Origin: an uncultured Roseobacter sp.
GTDB lineage: Bacteria > Pseudomonadota > Alphaproteobacteria > Rhodobacterales > Rhodobacteraceae
Reading direction: 5' to 3'
Length of the DNA: 64,000 nucleotides
Assembly (NCBI RefSeq): GCF_947499265.1
Contig: NZ_CANMNK010000006.1
Location: forward strand, 372,001 to 436,000
The first letter of the stretch is position 1. Every line of letters begins with the position of its first letter. Shown in pieces: positions 47,343-56,669 of the stretch. Made by a program: the position numbers and the translations under genes. The notes below the pieces were generated by a model, which worked only from the letters and a program-made list of their open reading frames with translations, was not told the origin of the DNA and did not search any database.

Positions 47343-48422
47343 TTACTGCGGGATTTCGCCCGTCAGACCTTCGACGTAGAAGTTCATGCCCGCGAGCGTG
47401 CCGTCATCGGCCACCTCACCATCTGCCAGCCAGTCGCTGCCGTCCTGCTTTTTCAGCGGGCCGGTGAAGGGATGATAGGAGCCATCGGCAATCGCGGCCT
47501 TCATCGCCAGCGCTTCCTCTTTCACATCCGCTGGCACCGCGTCGGAAATCTCGCCAATGGCTACCATGCCAGCGCCGATGCCGTCCCAGGTGTCGGTGCT
47601 TTCCCAGGTGCCGTCGATCACCGCCTGCGTGCGCGCGATGTAGTAGGGCGCCCAGTCATCGATGATCGAGGAGACGCGCGGGAAAGGCGCGTATTGGCCC
47701 ATGTCGGAGGCCTGACCGAATGTCACCACATTGCCCGCTTCCTGAGCAGCGGCCTGTGGCGCAGTGGAATCAGTGTGCTGCAACACCACGTCGGCACCTT
47801 GTTCGATCAACGCGCGGGCCGCATCAGCTTCTTTGGCCGGATCGAACCAAGTGTAGGCCCAAATGATCTTGAACTCGACATCTGGGTTGACCTTGGCCGC
47901 GTGGATATAGGCGGCGTTGATCCCCCGGATCACTTCCGGGATCGGGTAGGAGGCGATGTAGCCGATGATGTTGGACTTGGTCATCTTGCCCGCGATGTGG
48001 CCCTGAATGGCGCGTCCCTCATAGAAGCGTGCCGAATAGGTCGAGACATTGTCGGAGCGCTTGTAGCCCGTCGCGTGTTCGAATTTCACATCCGGGAATT
48101 TCGCGGCGATGTTGATCGTCGGGTCCATGTAGCCAAAGGAGGTGGTGAAGATCAGGTCGGCCCCATCGAGCGCCATCTGAGTCATCACGCGCTCGCTGTC
48201 CGGGCCTTCGGCGACGTTCTCGACGTAGACGGTTTCGACCGCATCGCCCAAGGCTTCTTCAACCGCCAGACGGCCCTTGTTGTGTTCATATGTCCAGCCG
48301 CCGTCGCCGATTGGGCCGACAAAGACGAAGCCGACTTTGGTCTTCTCATGGCCATCCGCATAGGCGCCAGCGGCCAAGCCGAGTGCCACCGCGGCACTGG
48401 CCAGAAGGGTTTTGATTTTCAT
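47343..48422 (-). CDS. BMP-family ABC transporter substrate-binding protein
   Basis: Periplasmic binding protein of 359 residues, PnrA-like, with a Sec signal peptide (MKIKTLLASAAVALGLAAGAYA). Family segments: GFVFVGPIGDGGWTYEHNKG, FTTSFGYMDPTINIA, SYPIPEVIRGINAAYIHA, WFDPAKEADAARALIEQGADVVLQHTDSTAP. The start at 48422 gives a standard signal; the frame extends upstream without a signal sequence. Together with two permeases and a double ATPase it forms an importer, probably for purines or nucleosides given the adjacent xdhABC. Confidence 0.94.
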   Translation of the reverse strand: MKIKTLLASAAVALGLAAGAYADGHEKTKVGFVFVGPIGDGGWTYEHNKGRLAVEEALGDAVETVYVENVAEGPDSERVMTQMALDGADLIFTTSFGYMDPTINIAAKFPDVKFEHATGYKRSDNVSTYSARFYEGRAIQGHIAGKMTKSNIIGYIASYPIPEVIRGINAAYIHAAKVNPDVEFKIIWAYTWFDPAKEADAARALIEQGADVVLQHTDSTAPQAAAQEAGNVVTFGQASDMGQYAPFPRVSSIIDDWAPYYIARTQAVIDGTWESTDTWDGIGAGMVAIGEISDAVPADVKEEALAMKAAIADGSYHPFTGPLKKQDGSDWLADGEVADDGTLAGMNFYVEGLTGEIPQ

Positions 48423-48474
48423 TTCAGGTCTTCCCCATGTTGAGCCGCCCCTTAACTGAGGCGTTGATTGGCCC

Positions 48475-49395
48475 CTAGTGAGAGGCGTGGAACGTTCGGC
48501 CCAGAGAGCCGGGTGCAGCACTCTTGTCTGCAGATAAGACGACGAGCACAATGATCGTTATGACATACGGCGACATTGCCAGATATTCCACCGGAATGGC
48601 AACGCCAGCGCCTTGCAGATTCAGTTGCAATTGTGTGATCCCGCCAAAAAGATAGGCACCCAGCAGCACGCGCCAGGGCTTCCAACTGGCGAAAACCACC
48701 AGTGCGAGAGCAATCCAGCCGACACCTGCGGTCATCCCTTCGGTCCATTGCGGGACGCGAATGAGGCTGATGTAGGCACCGCCCATGCCCGCACAGGCCC
48801 CACCAAACATGATCGCCAGCGTCCGGATGCGCACAACCTTGTATCCCAACGCATGGGCCGCATCGTGATTTTCACCCACCGCGCGCAGGACCAGACCGGC
48901 GCGGGTGAATTTCAGGACCGCCCAGACCATGGCGACCAGCAGCAGGCCGAAATACAAAATGGGATCATGCGAAAACAGGATGGGGCCGATCACGGGAATA
49001 TCCGCCAAGGGACCGAAATTGAAATCGGCCATGCGCGGGGGTTTGATCCCCACATACCCCTGGCCCAGAAGGGCGGACAGTCCCAGCCCAAAAAGAGTGA
49101 GCGCAAGCCCTGACGCGACCTGATTGGCCAGTGTGATCTGCGTGAGAAAGGCGAAAAGCAGGCTCAGCACGGCACCGCCCAGGGCGGCAGCGATAAAGCC
49201 CGTGAGCGGCGAGCCGGTTTCCACCGCAATCGCAAAGCCGCAAATGGCGCCGAGGATCATCATCCCCTCGACCCCAAGGTTCAGCACGCCCGCGCGTTCC
49301 ACTACCAATTCGCCGGTCGCCGCCAACAGAATGGGCGTGGCCGCGCTCATCAAAGCAGCGATCAGCAGGATCGGATTGATCACGGACAGATCCAT
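48475..49395 (-). CDS. BMP-type ABC transporter permease (second subunit)
   Basis: Membrane subunit of 306 residues in the BPD_transp_2 family, eight or nine helices. The ATPase-interaction region is in GLVLRAVGENHDAAHALGYKVVRIR, and AVRA/VGE-type EAA motif residues are kept. Paralog of the other permease gene, which it overlaps by one base. Belongs with the BMP binding protein and the ATPase. Confidence 0.93.
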   Translation of the reverse strand: MDLSVINPILLIAALMSAATPILLAATGELVVERAGVLNLGVEGMMILGAICGFAIAVETGSPLTGFIAAALGGAVLSLLFAFLTQITLANQVASGLALTLFGLGLSALLGQGYVGIKPPRMADFNFGPLADIPVIGPILFSHDPILYFGLLLVAMVWAVLKFTRAGLVLRAVGENHDAAHALGYKVVRIRTLAIMFGGACAGMGGAYISLIRVPQWTEGMTAGVGWIALALVVFASWKPWRVLLGAYLFGGITQLQLNLQGAGVAIPVEYLAMSPYVITIIVLVVLSADKSAAPGSLGRTFHASH

Positions 49396-50477
49396 TACGC
49401 TGCCTCCGTCCGGCCGAACTGCAGCCGGTAGTTGGTAAAAAGATCGAGCGCCAGAAGAAAAAACAACAGCATGCCCTGAAACACCTGAATGGCGGCGGCG
49501 GGCAGGCCAAGCTGGCTCTGTGCGATGTCGCCGCCAATGTAGGTCAGCGCCATCAGCAACCCGGCCAGCACGATGCCAATGGGATGCAACCGACCCAGAA
49601 AGGCTACGATGATCGCGGTAAAACCATATCCGACATTGAAATCGATGCTGACCTGACCCGCCGGACCTGAAACCTCAAACAGCCCGGCAAGACCTGCAAG
49701 CATGCCCGAGGTGCCCAGACAAAAGAGCAGCAGGCGACTGGGGTTCACACCGGAAAAACGCGCGGCGCGTGGCGCTTCTCCGGTGACGCGAACCGCGAAC
49801 CCAAGCCGGTGCCGCGCCAGGAGGACATAAGCGAAAATCACGGCGATCAGGGCGGCCACCACCCCCCAATGCATGCCCGATCCAGCGATGATCTCGGCAT
49901 TATGCGCGGACGCATATTGTTGCAGGTTGCGACTGCCGGGAAACCCAAAACCTTCGGGGTTTTTCAATAACCCCAATGACATGGAGGCCAGAAACTGCTC
50001 CGCCACATAGACCAGCATCAGGGAGACCAGGATTTCGTTGGTGCCGAATTTAACCTTCAGAAGCGCCGGGATCATCGCCCAGGCCCACCCGCCAAAGGCG
50101 CCTGCCAGAACCATCGCAGGAAAGATCAGCACGCTTTCCGTTGGATAAAACGCCAGCCCCATGCCCGCACCGAAAAGCGCGCCCATGATATATTGTCCTT
50201 CGGCCCCGATGTTCCAGATGCCCGCTTTGAACCCAAGGCTCAGCCCAATCGCAATCAACACCAGCGGCGCCCCTTTGATCAGCAATTGGGGGCGGTAATA
50301 AAACGCAAACTCACCAAACAGGGGCTCCCAGAAAATCGTCATGATCGACTGCACCGGGTCCTTGCCGAGCGCCGCAAACAACAGCCCGCCAAACAGAAAT
50401 GTCGCCAAAACCGCCAGCAGAGGCGTGACATACGCAAAAAACCGGCTCGGCTGCGGCCGCTTCTCCAACCGGATCAT
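49395..50477 (-). CDS. BMP-type ABC transporter permease (first subunit)
   Basis: Membrane subunit of 360 residues. Contact region HRLGFAVRVTGEAPRAARFSGVNPSRLLL, typical of nucleoside-type permeases; GFKAGIWNIGAEGQYIMGALFGAG is a family hallmark. The gap to the ATPase gene upstream holds a copy of the 37-bp repeat (50489-50525), and no clear ribosome site is left in front of this ATG. Confidence 0.93.
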   Translation of the reverse strand: MIRLEKRPQPSRFFAYVTPLLAVLATFLFGGLLFAALGKDPVQSIMTIFWEPLFGEFAFYYRPQLLIKGAPLVLIAIGLSLGFKAGIWNIGAEGQYIMGALFGAGMGLAFYPTESVLIFPAMVLAGAFGGWAWAMIPALLKVKFGTNEILVSLMLVYVAEQFLASMSLGLLKNPEGFGFPGSRNLQQYASAHNAEIIAGSGMHWGVVAALIAVIFAYVLLARHRLGFAVRVTGEAPRAARFSGVNPSRLLLFCLGTSGMLAGLAGLFEVSGPAGQVSIDFNVGYGFTAIIVAFLGRLHPIGIVLAGLLMALTYIGGDIAQSQLGLPAAAIQVFQGMLLFFLLALDLFTNYRLQFGRTEAA

Positions 50478-50488
50478 GAGATTGGCCC

Positions 50489-50525
50489 GCGTTTCTTCTG
50501 GCCGGAAATATCCTCGCCGAAGGCA
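50489..50525. repeat. 37-bp exact repeat, intergenic copy
   Basis: Identical over 37 bp to 54130-54166 inside xdhB, in the same orientation relative to transcription. Core on the minus strand: GGCGAGGATATTTCCGGCCA. It occupies most of the 72-bp gap between the ATPase and permease genes. Similar GC-box/ATATTT/GGCCAGAA extragenic motifs are, to my recollection, common in roseobacter genomes. Confidence 0.9.
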
Positions 50526-50549: not shown

Positions 50550-52064
50550 CTACACATGCGCCACCTCCATCCCATGTGCGCCCCCCATCAGCAGGCCAAT
50601 CTCTTCCACCGTAAGCCCATCCGTGCTGCGAGGTTCCGACAACCGCCCTTCGTTGAGCGCAGCAAAGCGGTCGGAGATTTCCATCAACTCGTCGAGATCC
50701 TGACTGATCACGATCACCGCGGCCCCATCGGTCGCCAGATCCAGCAGCGCCTGACGAATGGCCGCAGCAGCAGACGCATCCACCCCCCAGGTCGGTTGGT
50801 TGACCACCAGCACCTCCGGGCGCTGCAACACTTCCCGCCCGATCACGAATTTCTGCAGGTTACCGCCGGACAGCGAACGCGCCGCATTCCCCGCGCCGGG
50901 CGTGCGCACATCGAAGGTTTCGATGATCCTCTCGGCAAACCCGCGCGCGGCGGGCCAATTGAGAAACCCTTTCTTTTCAAGCTGCTCGCGCGCGGCACCG
51001 GTCAGCATTGCGTTTTCGGTCAACGACATGTCAGGGGCCGCAGCGTGTCCCAACCGCTCCTCTGGCGCAGCCAGCAGACCGGCAATTCGGCGCGCATTGG
51101 GACCCAAAGCGCCGATGTCCACGCCCTTCAGATGAACCATACCTTCAGGCGCGCGCATTTCGCCCGACAGGGCGGCAAGCAATTCATCTTGACCATTGCC
51201 CGCAACCCCGCCGATGCCCAGCACCTCGCCCTTGCGCAGGGACACGGAGATATCGCGCAACGGCATGCCGAAGGCCGAGGGCGAAGGCCGGGACAACCCG
51301 CGCAATTCCAGCAGCGTGTCGCCCAGAGTGACGCTGGGGCGGGAAGGTGTGCTCAGCACCTTGCCCACCATCATCTCGGCCATTTCCCGTGCCGTCGTGT
51401 CGCGCGGAATACATTCCCCAACAACCTTTCCCAATCGCAGAATGGTCGCGGCATCGCAGAGCGCACGGATTTCCTCAAGCTTATGAGAAATATACAGAAT
51501 TGCGGTGCCCTCTGCACTGAGCTTGCGCAGTGTTTCAAACAGAATTTCCACCTCCTGCGGGGTCAGAACGGAGGTTGGTTCATCCATGATCAACAGCTTG
51601 GGATCCTGCAGCAGACACCGAATGATCTCGACCCGCTGGCGCTCACCCGCGGACAGATCGCCGACGATCCGGTCGGGCGCAAGCGGCAGCCCGTAAGTGT
51701 CGGACACCTTTCTGATCTGTTCGGAGAGGGCGCGCAGTTTCGGCGCATTCTCCATGCCCAGGGCGATGTTTTCCGCAACACTCAGGGCGTCAAAGAGCGA
51801 AAAATGCTGAAACACCATGCCGACACCGGCAGCCCGCGCGGCGCGGGGCTCGAGCGGTGCATAGGGCGCGCCGTGCATCTGCATCGTCCCCTGGTCCGGT
51901 TTCACCAACCCGTAGATCATTTTCACCAGGGTCGATTTCCCCGCGCCATTTTCACCCAGCAGGGCGTGGACTTCCCCCGGTGCAATCGAGAGCGACACGG
52001 TGTCATTGGCCACGACGCCCGGGTAGGCTTTGGTCAGCCCATCCAGAGCCAGTAGGGCAGTCAT
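50550..52064 (-). CDS. BMP-type ABC transporter ATP-binding protein (two nucleotide-binding domains)
   Basis: Sugar/nucleoside-type double ATPase of 504 residues. First domain: Walker A GENGAGKST, signature LSAGERQRVEIIRCL, Walker B LLIMDEPTSVLTP. Second domain: degenerate Walker A GVAGNGQDELL, signature LSGGNLQKFVIGREV and VLVVNQPTWGVD, in which the Walker B glutamate region is altered as usual for this family. Starts at 52064 with an ATGA overlap to xdhC, linking transporter and xanthine dehydrogenase expression. Confidence 0.94.
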   Translation of the reverse strand: MTALLALDGLTKAYPGVVANDTVSLSIAPGEVHALLGENGAGKSTLVKMIYGLVKPDQGTMQMHGAPYAPLEPRAARAAGVGMVFQHFSLFDALSVAENIALGMENAPKLRALSEQIRKVSDTYGLPLAPDRIVGDLSAGERQRVEIIRCLLQDPKLLIMDEPTSVLTPQEVEILFETLRKLSAEGTAILYISHKLEEIRALCDAATILRLGKVVGECIPRDTTAREMAEMMVGKVLSTPSRPSVTLGDTLLELRGLSRPSPSAFGMPLRDISVSLRKGEVLGIGGVAGNGQDELLAALSGEMRAPEGMVHLKGVDIGALGPNARRIAGLLAAPEERLGHAAAPDMSLTENAMLTGAAREQLEKKGFLNWPAARGFAERIIETFDVRTPGAGNAARSLSGGNLQKFVIGREVLQRPEVLVVNQPTWGVDASAAAAIRQALLDLATDGAAVIVISQDLDELMEISDRFAALNEGRLSEPRSTDGLTVEEIGLLMGGAHGMEVAHV

Positions 52065-52996
52065 GCGCGCGTCTCCCATGCGGTGGTTTTTGCTTGCCGG
52101 GCCGCTATTAGCTCGGAGGCGACGCCAATGGCAATCGCATGCGGATGCTTACCCAACTCCGGTCGTCCGATCGGGCAGGTGATCCGGGCGATCTGGTCAG
52201 GCCCATGCCCCAGGTCGCGCAGTCGATTGCGAAACCGCGCCCACTTCGTCGCAGACCCTATCAGGCCTGCAAAGGCGAACCCATGCCCCAGCAATCGGTG
52301 GCACAGCTCCAGATCCAGCGCATGTGAAAACGTAACAATCAAATGCTCCGCATCATGTGGTGCATAGGGTATCAGATCTGCGGGTTGTCGGGCGCAAAGC
52401 TGCGTCACGCCATCGGGCATGTCGGCTGGAAACCGTTCGGATTGCGTGTCCACCCAGGTGATCTGAACATCCGGAAGCGGGTGCAAAACAGCAATCAATG
52501 CCCGCCCCACATGCCCCGCTCCCCAAATCCAGATCGCGCGCGTGGGCTGGCTGATGGGCTCCACCACCCAACCATCGCGATATGTCGGTACGGGTCGCTG
52601 GCCCCTGTTGCGCAACTGGCTGCGTGCCCGTGTGACGCTGAGCGGTTCCGGCCCCTTGCCGCGGGCGATCATGTCCTGCGGCAGCGCCTGCGCGCGCGTC
52701 AAATCATAGTACTCCGTCAGCATTTCCACCGCACCCCCGCAACATTGACCCATGTCAGGGCCAAGTGCGTGGCGTGTTACCGCATCCGCGCCGGTTTCCA
52801 GCTGCCTGCGCGCTGCCTGCGTCAAGGCGTGCTCCAATGCACCTCCGCCAACTGTGCCGGATTGTCCATCGCGCCACACCAGCATGGACGCCCCCACCTC
52901 GCGCGGCGCGGAGCCTTTGACGCTGGCGACCACCACACGCGCCACCCTGCCATGCGCCCGGCAGGCCTCGATCAATGCAGCGCGGTCAAAAGACAT
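52061..52996 (-). CDS. xdhC: Xanthine dehydrogenase accessory protein XdhC
   Basis: Cofactor-insertion chaperone of 311 residues that binds and sulfurates the molybdenum cofactor for XdhB. N-terminal XdhC/CoxI domain (GRVARVVVASVKGSAPREVGASMLVW, GPDMGQCCGGAVEML) and a C-terminal Rossmann domain (IWIWGAGHVGRALI, FAGLIGSATKWARF). Overlaps xdhB by one base and the ATPase gene by four. Confidence 0.95.
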   Translation of the reverse strand: MSFDRAALIEACRAHGRVARVVVASVKGSAPREVGASMLVWRDGQSGTVGGGALEHALTQAARRQLETGADAVTRHALGPDMGQCCGGAVEMLTEYYDLTRAQALPQDMIARGKGPEPLSVTRARSQLRNRGQRPVPTYRDGWVVEPISQPTRAIWIWGAGHVGRALIAVLHPLPDVQITWVDTQSERFPADMPDGVTQLCARQPADLIPYAPHDAEHLIVTFSHALDLELCHRLLGHGFAFAGLIGSATKWARFRNRLRDLGHGPDQIARITCPIGRPELGKHPHAIAIGVASELIAARQAKTTAWETRA

Positions 52997-55299
52997 CAGA
53001 TGCCTCCCCGTGCCCGCTCAACGCCGGCCAGAACAGCCTCAGCGGTCGCGGGTGTCTGCAGATCGGCGTAGTGTGGGCCACAGGATTGCACCGCATCACA
53101 TAGGGCCGAATAAGCGGAGATGCCCAGCATCAACGGCGGCTCGCCCACCGCCTTGGATCGGTAAACGGTTTCCTCGCGGTTTTCGCCGTCCCAGAGCGCG
53201 ACGTTGAAAATATCAGGGCGATCGGAACAGGCCGGGATCTTGTAGGTCGAGGGCGCATGCGTGCGCAAACGTCCGGCGTCGTCCCAGACAAGTTCCTCGG
53301 TTGTGAGCCAGCCTGCGCCCTGCACATACCCGCCTTCGATCTGGCCAATATCAATGCCGGGGTTCAGCGATGCGCCCGCGTCATGCAGGATATCAGCGCG
53401 CAGGATGCGGTTTTCCCCGGTCAGCGTGTCGACCACCACTTCGGTGACCGCGGCGCCATAGGCGAAGTAGAAAAATGGGCGACCTTCGCCCTTGATCCGG
53501 TCCCATTCCAGCTTGGGTGTCTTGTAAAACCCGGTCGCCGACAGGCTCACACGCGCGAAATAGGCCATCTGGGCAACTTCGGCGAAACTGTACGTGGCTC
53601 CCGCCACCAGCACCTCGCCGCCCACGAACCGGACGTCCATGGCCTCGCACTGATGCCGTTCGGCCAGCAGATCGGCCATGCGCGCGCGGATCGTGTCGCA
53701 GGCGGCCTGCACCGCCATCCCATTGAGATCGCTGCCGGAAGAGGCCGCCGTGGCGGAGGTGTTGGGCACCTTGCCTGTATCCGTCGCTGTGATCTTCACC
53801 TGCCCCACATCGACACCAAACCTCGCGGCGGCGACCTGGGCAACCTTCTGAAACAGGCCTTGCCCCATTTCGGTGCCACCGTGGTTCAGATGGATGGAGC
53901 CGTCCTGATAGACATGCACCAGCGCACCCGCCTGATTGAGATGTGTCAGCGTAAATGAAATGCCGAATTTCACGGGCGTCAGCGCGATACCTTTTTTCAA
54001 CACAGGGTTTTGCGCGTTCCAGTCCAAGACCGATGCGCGCCGCGCCGCGTAGTCGCTGCTGTCAACAAGGCGCTCGATCATCTTGGGCAGGACGAAATCC
54101 TCGACCTCCTGACCGTAAGGCGTGGTGTTGCGTTTCTTCTGGCCGGAAATATCCTCGCCGAAGGCATAGAAGTTTTTCTGCCGCACCGCCAAGGGATCCA
54201 ACCCCAGATGTGTGGCGATATGGTCCATGACCCGCTCGATCCCCAACATCCCCTGCGGCCCGCCAAACCCGCGAAAGGCCGTGGCACTTTGCGTATTGGT
54301 TTTTAGCCGGTGACTGGTGATGCGCACGGCGGGCAGGAAATAGGCATTGTCGGCGTGCAGCATGGCCCGGTCCGCCACTGGCAGCGACAGATCCTGCGCC
54401 CAGCCGCACCGTGCATAATGGGTGAAATCAATGCCTTCGATCCTGCCATCGACATCAAAGCCCACGGTGTAATCGATGCGAAAATCATGGCGCTTGCCGG
54501 TGATGATCATGTCGTCATCCCGATCATATCGCATCCGGCAGGGGCGTCCCGTTTGCGCGGCCACCACGGCGCAGGCCACGGCCAGCGCATTGCCCTGACT
54601 TTCCTTGCCGCCAAACCCGCCGCCCATGCGCCGGGTTTCCACGCGGACGGCGTGCATGGGTTTGCCCAGGGCCTCTGCCACCTTGTGCTGGATTTCTGTG
54701 GGGTGCTGGGTGGAGCTCATCACGACCATATCGCCCCCCTCCTGGGGCAGCGCGAGCGCGGCCTGGCCTTCGAGGTAGAAATGCTCCTGCCCGCCCACAT
54801 GCAACCGGCCTGTGATGCGGTGGGATGCTTGCGGCAAGGCCGCCTCGACATCGCCGCGGGTGTAGACACGGGGGCCGTCCTCAAAACGGCTGTTTTGCGC
54901 CATCGCATCGTCAATGGTCAGGATCGCGGGTGTCTCGGTGGGGTCGATCTGCCCCAACCGCGCGGCCTGTCTTGCGGCCAGATGCGAGCTTGCGGCCACC
55001 ACAAAGAGCGGCTGCCCCACGTAGTGCACGCGGTTCGTAGCCAGCAGCGGTTCATCGTGGTTCGACGGCGATACGTCATTGTCAAAGGGCAGGTCCGAGG
55101 CGGTCAACACGGCAGCCACACCGGGGGCATCGCGCACCGCAGCCAGATCGATCCCGTTCAACCGTCCCGCTGCCACGTGCGACATCCCAAACGCCAGATG
55201 CAACGCGTCCTTCGGCACAGGGATATCGTCGATATAGCGTGCAGCTCCCGTCACGTGCAAAGCGGCGGCATCATGGGGCAGGGGCTTGGCCACGCTCAT
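52996..55299 (-). CDS. xdhB: Xanthine dehydrogenase molybdenum-binding subunit
   Basis: Catalytic subunit of 767 residues that hydroxylates hypoxanthine and xanthine to urate. Cofactor-binding motifs: [14 protein letters not shown] (about 223-236), [15 protein letters not shown] (337-351) and the catalytic glutamate in KAVGEPPLM near the C-terminus. Residues 379-390 ([12 protein letters not shown]) are encoded exactly by a copy of the 37-bp repeat and appear to interrupt the usual NFY...RNTTPYGQ stretch. Overlaps xdhA by 4 bp and xdhC by 1 bp. Confidence 0.95.
54130..54166. repeat. 37-bp exact repeat, copy inside xdhB
   Basis: Identical to 50489-50525. Read on the minus strand it equals one base plus exactly 12 codons (residues 379-390 of XdhB), leaving the frame intact. 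Confidence 0.9.
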
Positions 55300-56669
55300 G
55301 GCATCACCTCAAGCGCATTTGCTGCAACGCCTTGATCCTCATGCCAATACCTCAGCAGCATGTTCTGCGCCGTTTTCATCCGGTAGGTCGCGCTGGCGCG
55401 CATGTCTGACAGGGGCTCGAAGTCCGATGCCATGGCCCGCATCGCGGCGCGCACGGTCGCCTCAGACCAGGGCGCGCCCATCAGGGCCGCCTCGGCACCA
55501 GCTGCCCGTTTCGGGATGCCAGCCATGCCACCAAATGCAATACGGGCCGCAGTGGCGCGCCCGTTTTCCGTGGCGATCGAAAAGCATCCGCAAACGGCGG
55601 AGATGTCCTGATCATAGCGCTTTGACAGCTTGTAGCACTTCAGGTAGTCCGGGCCGCGCGGGATTGTGATGGCTTCGACGAATTCACCGGGTCGGCGATC
55701 CTGCTTGCCATAATCGATAAAGAAGTCTTCGAGCGGCATATTCCGCCGCTCACTTCCCAACCGCAAGTGCACGCGCGCGGCCAGCGCGATCAGTGCCGGG
55801 GGGCCGTCACCAATCGGCGAGCCATTGGCGATATTCCCGCCGATGGTGGCGGCATTGCGCACCTGAACCGACCCGTAGCGCCGGATCAACTCGGCGAATG
55901 AGGGATGATGCGGGGCAATGGCATCTTCCAGTTCGGTCAACGTCGTCATCGCGCCGATGCGAATGGTGTCGTCCGTCCGCGCGACGCCGCGCAGGTCGGC
56001 ACATCCGTTCAAAAACGCCACAGGGCCAAGTGGACGGAATTCCTTTGTCACCCAAAGACCGACATCCGTTGCACCGGCGATCAGGGTGGCATCGGGATGG
56101 GCCTGATACCAGGTGGCTAGATCATCGCTGGTTTCGGGTTGGAATAGGGCATCGCTACCTTTGTTTTTGGATTTTGCGACCGGCGCATCCCGCATATGAT
56201 CGGGGACGGGTGCTGCCTCTGCCGCCTCCGCGGCGCGCACAATCGGGGCATATCCGGTGCAGCGGCACAGGTTGCCTGCAAGCTGCGTGTCATGATCCTT
56301 GCGATGGTTCAAATGGGCCGTGGCCATGGAGACCACAAATCCCGGGGTGCAAAATCCGCATTGGCTGCCATGATGATCAATCATCGCCTGCTGCACCGGA
56401 TGCAACGCGCCATCTGGCGCGGCGATCCCCTCGATGGTGCGCACCGCTTTGCCGTTCAACTGCGGCAGGAACAAGATACAGGCATTGAATGTCCGAGCAC
56501 CGAGCGCATCCGTGATCATGACCGAACACGCCCCGCAATCACCTTCATTGCAGCCCTCTTTGGTGCCTGTCAGTCCGCGCGCCTCTCTGAGCCAGTCCAG
56601 CAGGGTGGTGGTCGGCGCCACATCTCGCAGCACCACTGTTTCTCCGTTCAGGCGAAACGTTATCTCCAT
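55296..56669 (-). CDS. xdhA: Xanthine dehydrogenase small subunit (FeS and FAD)
   Basis: Electron-transfer subunit of 457 residues. The N-terminal 2Fe-2S ferredoxin domain has CNEGDCGAC with a later NAC; the second 2Fe-2S domain has CGFCTPG and CRCTGY; the FAD domain (about 185-450) includes [16 protein letters not shown] and [18 protein letters not shown]. The start at 56669 ([10 protein letters not shown]) gives the standard N-terminus; the frame is open further upstream. First gene of the xdhABC-transporter operon, 221 bp from the divergent dnaE. Confidence 0.95.

Follow-up and report, generated by a model that had tools for sequence, protein, structure and literature searches.

Why does xdhB, the gene for the molybdopterin-binding subunit of xanthine dehydrogenase in an uncultured Roseobacter sp., carry within its reading frame a 37-bp sequence that is also found between two transporter genes nearby? 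The window, that is, the whole stretch of DNA that was analysed, is 64,000 nucleotides long. Direct sequence comparison bears out what a preliminary description of this DNA had reported: the two 37-bp sequences are identical. Both lie on the minus strand, spaced by 3641 bases (Table 1). Ungapped extension of the pair leads to 56 nt with 84% identity. The 36-base motif did not occur, at up to three mismatches, in any of 100 dinucleotide shuffles of the window. One copy is located inside the 72-bp interval that separates the genes for an ABC ATPase and a permease, and the other is in frame in xdhB, where, as already described, 36 of its 37 bases form codons 379-390. The preliminary description viewed these codons as a 12-codon insert with respect to shorter relatives. 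Many relatives do have shorter or different loops at this position. However, the repeat substitutes in part for loop residues, with a net gain of about 7 residues and no clean addition of 12 codons, because the NFY-to-TPY distance is 14 residues in the XdhB of the window versus 7 in short-loop relatives, such as G036 (NLYGATERNVTPYHQ).

Table 1. Repeat copies and surrounding genes, in positions of the window
Feature	Positions	Strand	Basis or remark
In-frame repeat copy in xdhB (residues 379-390)	54130..54166	-	sequence match, translation
xdhB copy, stem GCCTTCGGC	54165-54157	-	
xdhB copy, block GAGGATATTT	54156-54147	-	
xdhB copy, spacer CCG	54146-54144	-	
xdhB copy, tag GCCAGAAGAA	54143-54134	-	
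Intergenic copy, ATPase/permease gap	50489..50525	-	identical to xdhB copy
Gap copy, stem	50524-50516	-	
Gap copy, block	50515-50506	-	
Gap copy, spacer	50505-50503	-	
Gap copy, tag	50502-50493	-	
xdhB, xanthine dehydrogenase molybdopterin-binding subunit	52996..55299	-	TIGR02965, 1244 bits (cut-off 849.5)
xdhA, xanthine dehydrogenase small subunit	55296..56669	-	TIGR02963 above cut-off; context
xdhC, XDH accessory protein	52061..52996	-	TIGR02964 above cut-off; context
ABC transporter ATPase, upstream of gap copy	50550..52079	-	PF00005
ABC permease, downstream of gap copy	49395..50477	-	PF02653

The transporter located beside xdhABC (window positions 47346-50477) comprises a Bmp/PnrA-type binding protein and BPD_transp_2 permeases, and would fit a role in purine nucleoside uptake. 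For the ATPase gene, none of 25 models among the NCBIfam matches listed was above its cut-off. An Rfam scan of the window gave no match at the gathering score.

The preliminary description had proposed to search for the motif in this and related genomes and to align XdhB loops. Both were done and revealed a dispersed repeat and variable loops. In the genome of the window (hereafter the own genome), the core GAGGATATTTNNGGCCAGAAGAA gave 54 matches at up to three mismatches, and the reversed pattern gave one. Fifty of these 54 copies were taken with their gene context. Forty-seven are intergenic, the rest being the xdhB copy, L110, where the gene start is uncertain, and L125, in purH. The consensus of 49 own copies (without purH) is composed of a mini-stem GCCTCCGGC, a block GGGGATATTT, about three weakly constrained bases and a tag GCCAGAAGAA. 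From the third base of the block onward, most positions of block and tag do not vary. Pairing of the mini-stem is kept at the strict position in 33 of the 49 copies, as GCC/GGC, CGC/GCG, CCC/GGG or ACC/GGT, and many of the other copies have a longer GC-rich hairpin. A degenerate form of the pattern was found in 84 of 149 family genomes and in none of the controls, with about 50-140 matches in each repeat-rich genome. In general, a mini-stem of 9 nt, replaced in some copies by a longer GC-rich hairpin, precedes a block GGG[AG][AG]TATTT, which is followed by 2-3 free bases and a 10-base tag. On this evidence, the 37-bp sequence can be assigned to a bipartite DNA repeat of Rhodobacteraceae. The idea of an extragenic repeat of roseobacter type that also sits in frame in xdhB, put forward in the preliminary description, thus stands.

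A scan of named genomes matched at least 108 stretches, 80 of which are listed and were classified. These 80 contain 85 matches, of which 72 are intergenic, 8 are too close to an edge to be judged and 5 overlap a predicted gene, including xdhB of Roseobacter cerasinus. The titles of the listed records correspond to genera that we take to be Rhodobacteraceae, or to unplaced Alphaproteobacteria. The 72 listed intergenic copies are distributed between convergent gene pairs (28), co-directional pairs (24 in sense and 15 in antisense) and divergent pairs (5). Copies of the repeat are mostly found near the 3' ends of genes. Among the records searched, three plasmid records and no phage record matched.

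Gene calls for the context of the copies were made with a simple codon-usage script. Among about 188 copies placed in this way (50 own copies plus 27, 34 and 77 others, duplicates not removed), xdhB is the only mid-gene home (L041, L091 and L287). In one set of 38 loci, four without a motif position were left unclassified. Six copies are at uncertain gene edges, L296 and five others (L110, L137, L267, L274 and L281) that are close to predicted starts of uncertain position. At L296, a predicted 734-aa gene seems to run into an antisense copy, giving a C-terminal tail that contains VLLARNIPAGG ahead of the stop. Three apparent in-gene copies were rejected. The residues at L125 align to solved PurH chains without insertion and therefore belong to native PurH, the three-mismatch match being a coincidence. 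L163 and L185 match only the loose pattern, by inspection, and were also considered as coincidences.

In XdhB, the repeat site is the loop from NFY or NYY to TPY. Thirty-four of 85 loops contain the block, always in frame 0, compared to a mean of 0.6 and a maximum of 4 with shuffled loops. Short-stem and long-stem forms are both represented. The preliminary description had also named a pattern that would speak against such a repeat, namely a loop universal in XdhB homologs with diverse DNA, and a motif present nowhere else in the genome. This is not what was found.

The XdhB loop is largely written in the spelling of the genome that carries it. Its tag is identical to a listed tag of the same genome in 16 of 28 lineages, and the number increases to 20 with up to one mismatch and to 25 with up to two. 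Permuting the genomes gave a mean of 1.2 exact matches, and 16 were reached in 0 of 100000 permutations. Five of the 28 tags (G144, G145, G160, G171 and G175) are nearer to some other genome than to their own among the matches listed, which are partial for many genomes and few for G145 and G171. The test covers 28 of the 33 lineages having a repeat-like loop, own-genus genomes beyond the own one not being counted separately; G098, G132 and G041, with few or no copies listed, and G108 and G142, with no pattern match, were left out.

Some repeat-rich genomes have no repeat in XdhB (G049 with 45 matches, G176 with 78, G163 with 38 and G158 with 20), and repeat-type XdhB loops are present in two genomes without a pattern match (G108 and G142). 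Thus, the genic copy is dispensable. In G010 and G012, which have no copies, the XdhB loops look decayed. The presence of the repeat in XdhB is patchy: a FastTree gene tree requires 25 changes or more, with 31 of 86 inner branches open and the loop types being our own labels, including five without the strict block (G041, G080, G087, G142 and G171). Such a tree leaves room for early entry followed by many losses as well as for repeated entry. Early entry is favoured because of the common frame and of the shared neighbouring residues described below.

Codon positions behave unusually in the insert. When the own sequence is compared with those of five relatives, third-position differences amount to 0.079 in the insert versus 0.430 for the gene mean, with only 3 of 757 windows along the gene as low, and amino-acid change is near average (0.109 versus 0.121). 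With the five relatives alone, the third-position value is 0.091 versus 0.399, as low as this in 4 of 757 windows, and the protein changes less than average (0.036 versus 0.113). Silent sites are therefore unusually held in both sets, whereas average protein change is seen only in the set with the own copy.

A second type of XdhB loop, GPGTG.RFGG.HSP, is found at the same site with a patchy distribution (G066, G068, G071, G106, G113, G151 and G155). The codons of these loops, from seven genera, are varied and we consider them as an ordinary protein loop, not as the repeat. G113 has a weak match to the block and is counted among the 34 block-bearing loops. At L200 (G116), a lysine run (SGKKKKKKKAKAL) occupies the same site.

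Among the matches listed, block and tag hardly vary inside one genome, or inside each of the few subfamilies that it contains, and they differ across lineages. We refer to these spellings as dialects. In G018, GACCAAAGAA is found in nearly all of 49 matches. The dialect of G020 is GACAGAAGAA. G050 has two linked subfamilies, GATATTT with GCAAAATGAA and GAGTATTT with GCTCGATGAA. Mixed-dialect genomes also exist, for example G021 and G069, and four genomes of the same genus have at most one match to the repeat pattern used there (none in G010, G012 and G013, one in G011).

Own copies were compared with 29 copies of G004, G009, G016, G018 and G021. This gave 16 orthologous intergenic pairs in which both flanking genes match, and in 15 of them the relative's copy has the spelling listed for the relative's own genome. 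The exception, L169 in G009, combines GAGTATTT with GCCAGAAGAA, unlike the other copies of G009. On the own side, the tags of the copies L051 and L126 depart from the usual one by one or two bases. From one dialect to another, block and tag mostly switch at shared sites. In 8 same-site pairs of the same dialect, differences were counted at 14/24 spacer, 85/160 downstream flank, 1/72 stem, 3/80 block and 0/80 tag positions. The search patterns themselves account for part of the conservation of block and tag; the stem is absent from the pattern that retrieved the relatives' copies. With four cross-dialect pairs added (n=12, both neighbours matching, a single-neighbour pair left out and two own loci used twice), the counts are 22/36 for the spacer, 139/240 downstream, 3/108 for the stem, 9/120 for the block and 6/120 for the tag. 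That the spacer varies freely between two conserved parts favours recognition of the element over recent copying of whole units.

In the five closest repeat-bearing relatives, the xdhB codons are TCC GGC GGG. The own genome has TTC GGC GAG both in xdhB and in the gap copy. Furthermore, among the 50 own copies examined, only the gap copy has the stem and block with spacer CC that match xdhB. Because both codon differences from the relatives match the gap copy, the simplest account of the 37-bp identity would be that the gap copy recently converted the one in xdhB. This event, acting over 3.6 kb, would have produced the identity and changed ASGGD to AFGED. Since conversion seems to happen here, local conversion might also explain part of the uniformity of the repeat without any factor.

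Taken together, we consider it rather probable that a DNA element, putatively recognised by a factor, entered the XdhB loop long ago and has since tracked the dialect of the genome, the conversion from gap to xdhB being recent. In this scheme, a putative trans-acting factor would read the element at the DNA level, and its specificity would drift. One copy would have entered a tolerant loop of XdhB early in Rhodobacteraceae, and would since then have been kept, lost or rewritten. The nucleic-acid dialect would thus largely determine the loop residues, and the function of the enzyme would have a smaller part in it. We put forward more tentatively, as a possibility short of an even chance, that a family-wide DNA recognition element dictates part of the sequence of a housekeeping enzyme, the dispersed copies and the XdhB loop changing dialect together as the putative factor drifts. 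If true, the copy in xdhB would be an old genic site of a DNA recognition system. The XdhB loop is a case of protein residues tracking the nucleic-acid dialect of a repeat over many genera. It draws attention to a plentiful motif in two parts, with a free spacer between them and a tag that drifts, and raises the questions of which factor, if any, reads this motif and how its dozens of scattered copies switch their spelling together. The repeat also provides an explanation of the odd XdhB loop, probably including that of the crystallised Rhodobacter capsulatus enzyme (PDB 1jro chain B, with 760 residues in the chain for a sequence of 777).

The patchy presence, with its at least 25 tree changes, the mixture of short- and long-stem forms and the use of the local dialect in XdhB could also result from a mobile or copy-prone repeat inserted many times independently, from the local dialect, into one permissive loop. 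The common frame would then be the only one yielding a tolerated hydrophilic peptide. We regard such recurrent entry as unlikely, though it deserves attention. All 34 block-bearing loops are in one frame although the other sense frames are largely stop-free, by inspection. Moreover, distant genera share residues adjoining the repeat (AE[AM]..GG..AP in several, DLASRGA in G020 and G171, SRGAVGE in G105 and G171), which suggests descent. Intergenic copies at orthologous sites and an own genome devoid of a Y1_Tnp gene also argue against it. A slightly less likely proposal is that of a REP- or terminator-like RNA element. Intergenic copies would act in the transcript past stop codons, in 3' end stabilisation or in termination, and the xdhB copy would be a passenger. 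Consistent with this, 67 of the 72 listed intergenic copies have at least one neighbouring gene ending towards them, only the 5 divergent cases departing from the rule, and mini-stem pairing is kept through its four variants. However, both orientations are found between co-directional genes, and some copies stop within about 15 nt of the following start codon, which is ill-suited to a strong terminator. In addition, folding of the 49 own copies showed no excess stability over shuffles (mean z of 0.05 in sense and -0.57 in antisense).

The preliminary description had also considered the copying of an xdhB fragment into the interval between the ATPase and permease genes. The identity of both copies in the own genome would agree with this, but the gap copy is also present in six relatives of the same genus (G002, G006, G008, G014, G015 and G018), which contradicts the proposal. 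The upstream bases of the gap copy, CCAAAAGAG, also resemble those of other intergenic copies, and it is the xdhB copy that departs from relatives, at two codons where it equals the gap copy. Copying outward from xdhB is therefore very improbable. Hardly any weight can be given to an ordinary conserved loop, in which the function of the enzyme would maintain the XdhB residues and the match at the DNA level would be incidental. XdhB is an intact, conserved enzyme and such coincidences do happen, as exemplified by purH, but the residues of the loop vary with the dialect while third positions are held, and further copies of the motif occur in non-coding DNA. The DNA element read by a putative factor remains our preferred reading.

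The preliminary description drew a parallel with Rickettsia palindromic elements (RPEs). The two systems have in common a usually extragenic repeat that also occurs in frame in protein genes. RPEs are palindromic and enter several genes, whereas here one gene is concerned and the common, short form has only a 3-bp stem and is mostly non-palindromic, although long-hairpin forms exist. Many genes per genome and a stable palindromic hairpin were thus not found. Two RPE families end in CGTC; the present repeat has no such end, shows lineage dialects and follows the dialect of its genome. The xdhB repeat is not a Rickettsia-type element and the parallel is supported only loosely.

According to one report, REPs and RPEs occur inside genes, and in two Xanthomonas species recB carries different REPs at about one site (PMC3733652). 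The same report describes REP/BIME elements as intergenic repeats of 20-40 bp with many copies, inverted pairs and some intragenic cases (PMC3733652). The present repeat is likewise short, numerous, extragenic and near 3' ends. Unlike them, the consensus of 49 own copies lacks a GTAG/CGTC tetranucleotide at the foot of the stem, and no folding excess was found. Mobilisation by a RAYT was rejected, since the search for a Y1_Tnp gene gave none in eight repeat-bearing genomes including the own one (G000, G002, G006, G008, G015, G018, G020 and G021), though G004 had 10 matches and G014 had a partial one. An intrinsic terminator would have a stable GC hairpin with a T run in one orientation; here there is no folding excess, and both orientations are used.

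DNA uptake sequences have thousands of copies per genome. The present repeat differs from them by its bipartite structure with a free spacer, its rarity in genes and its about 50-140 matches. It has in common with them a short motif in lineage dialects, largely uniform per genome among the matches listed and at times two per genome, with inverted pairs and protein-level variation in coding sequence, as reported for the dialects of Neisseriaceae (PMC3630211). In-gene REPs and RPEs together with uptake-sequence dialects are precedents of the present case. A literature search by motif letters and by family repeats, over titles and the beginnings of abstracts, found no description of this repeat; we make no claim of a wider absence.

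Copies of the repeat are frequently arranged in tail-to-tail pairs with starts 29-60 bases apart, as seen in G014, G018, G020, G050, G054 and G147 (for example G014:C3:359522/359556 and G050:C1:423884/423913). In G050, the two members of each of the five pairs listed differ in dialect. A head-to-head pair is found at L175 in G021, where it forms the palindrome AAATATCCCCGCCGGAGGC...GCCTCCGGCGGGGATATTT.
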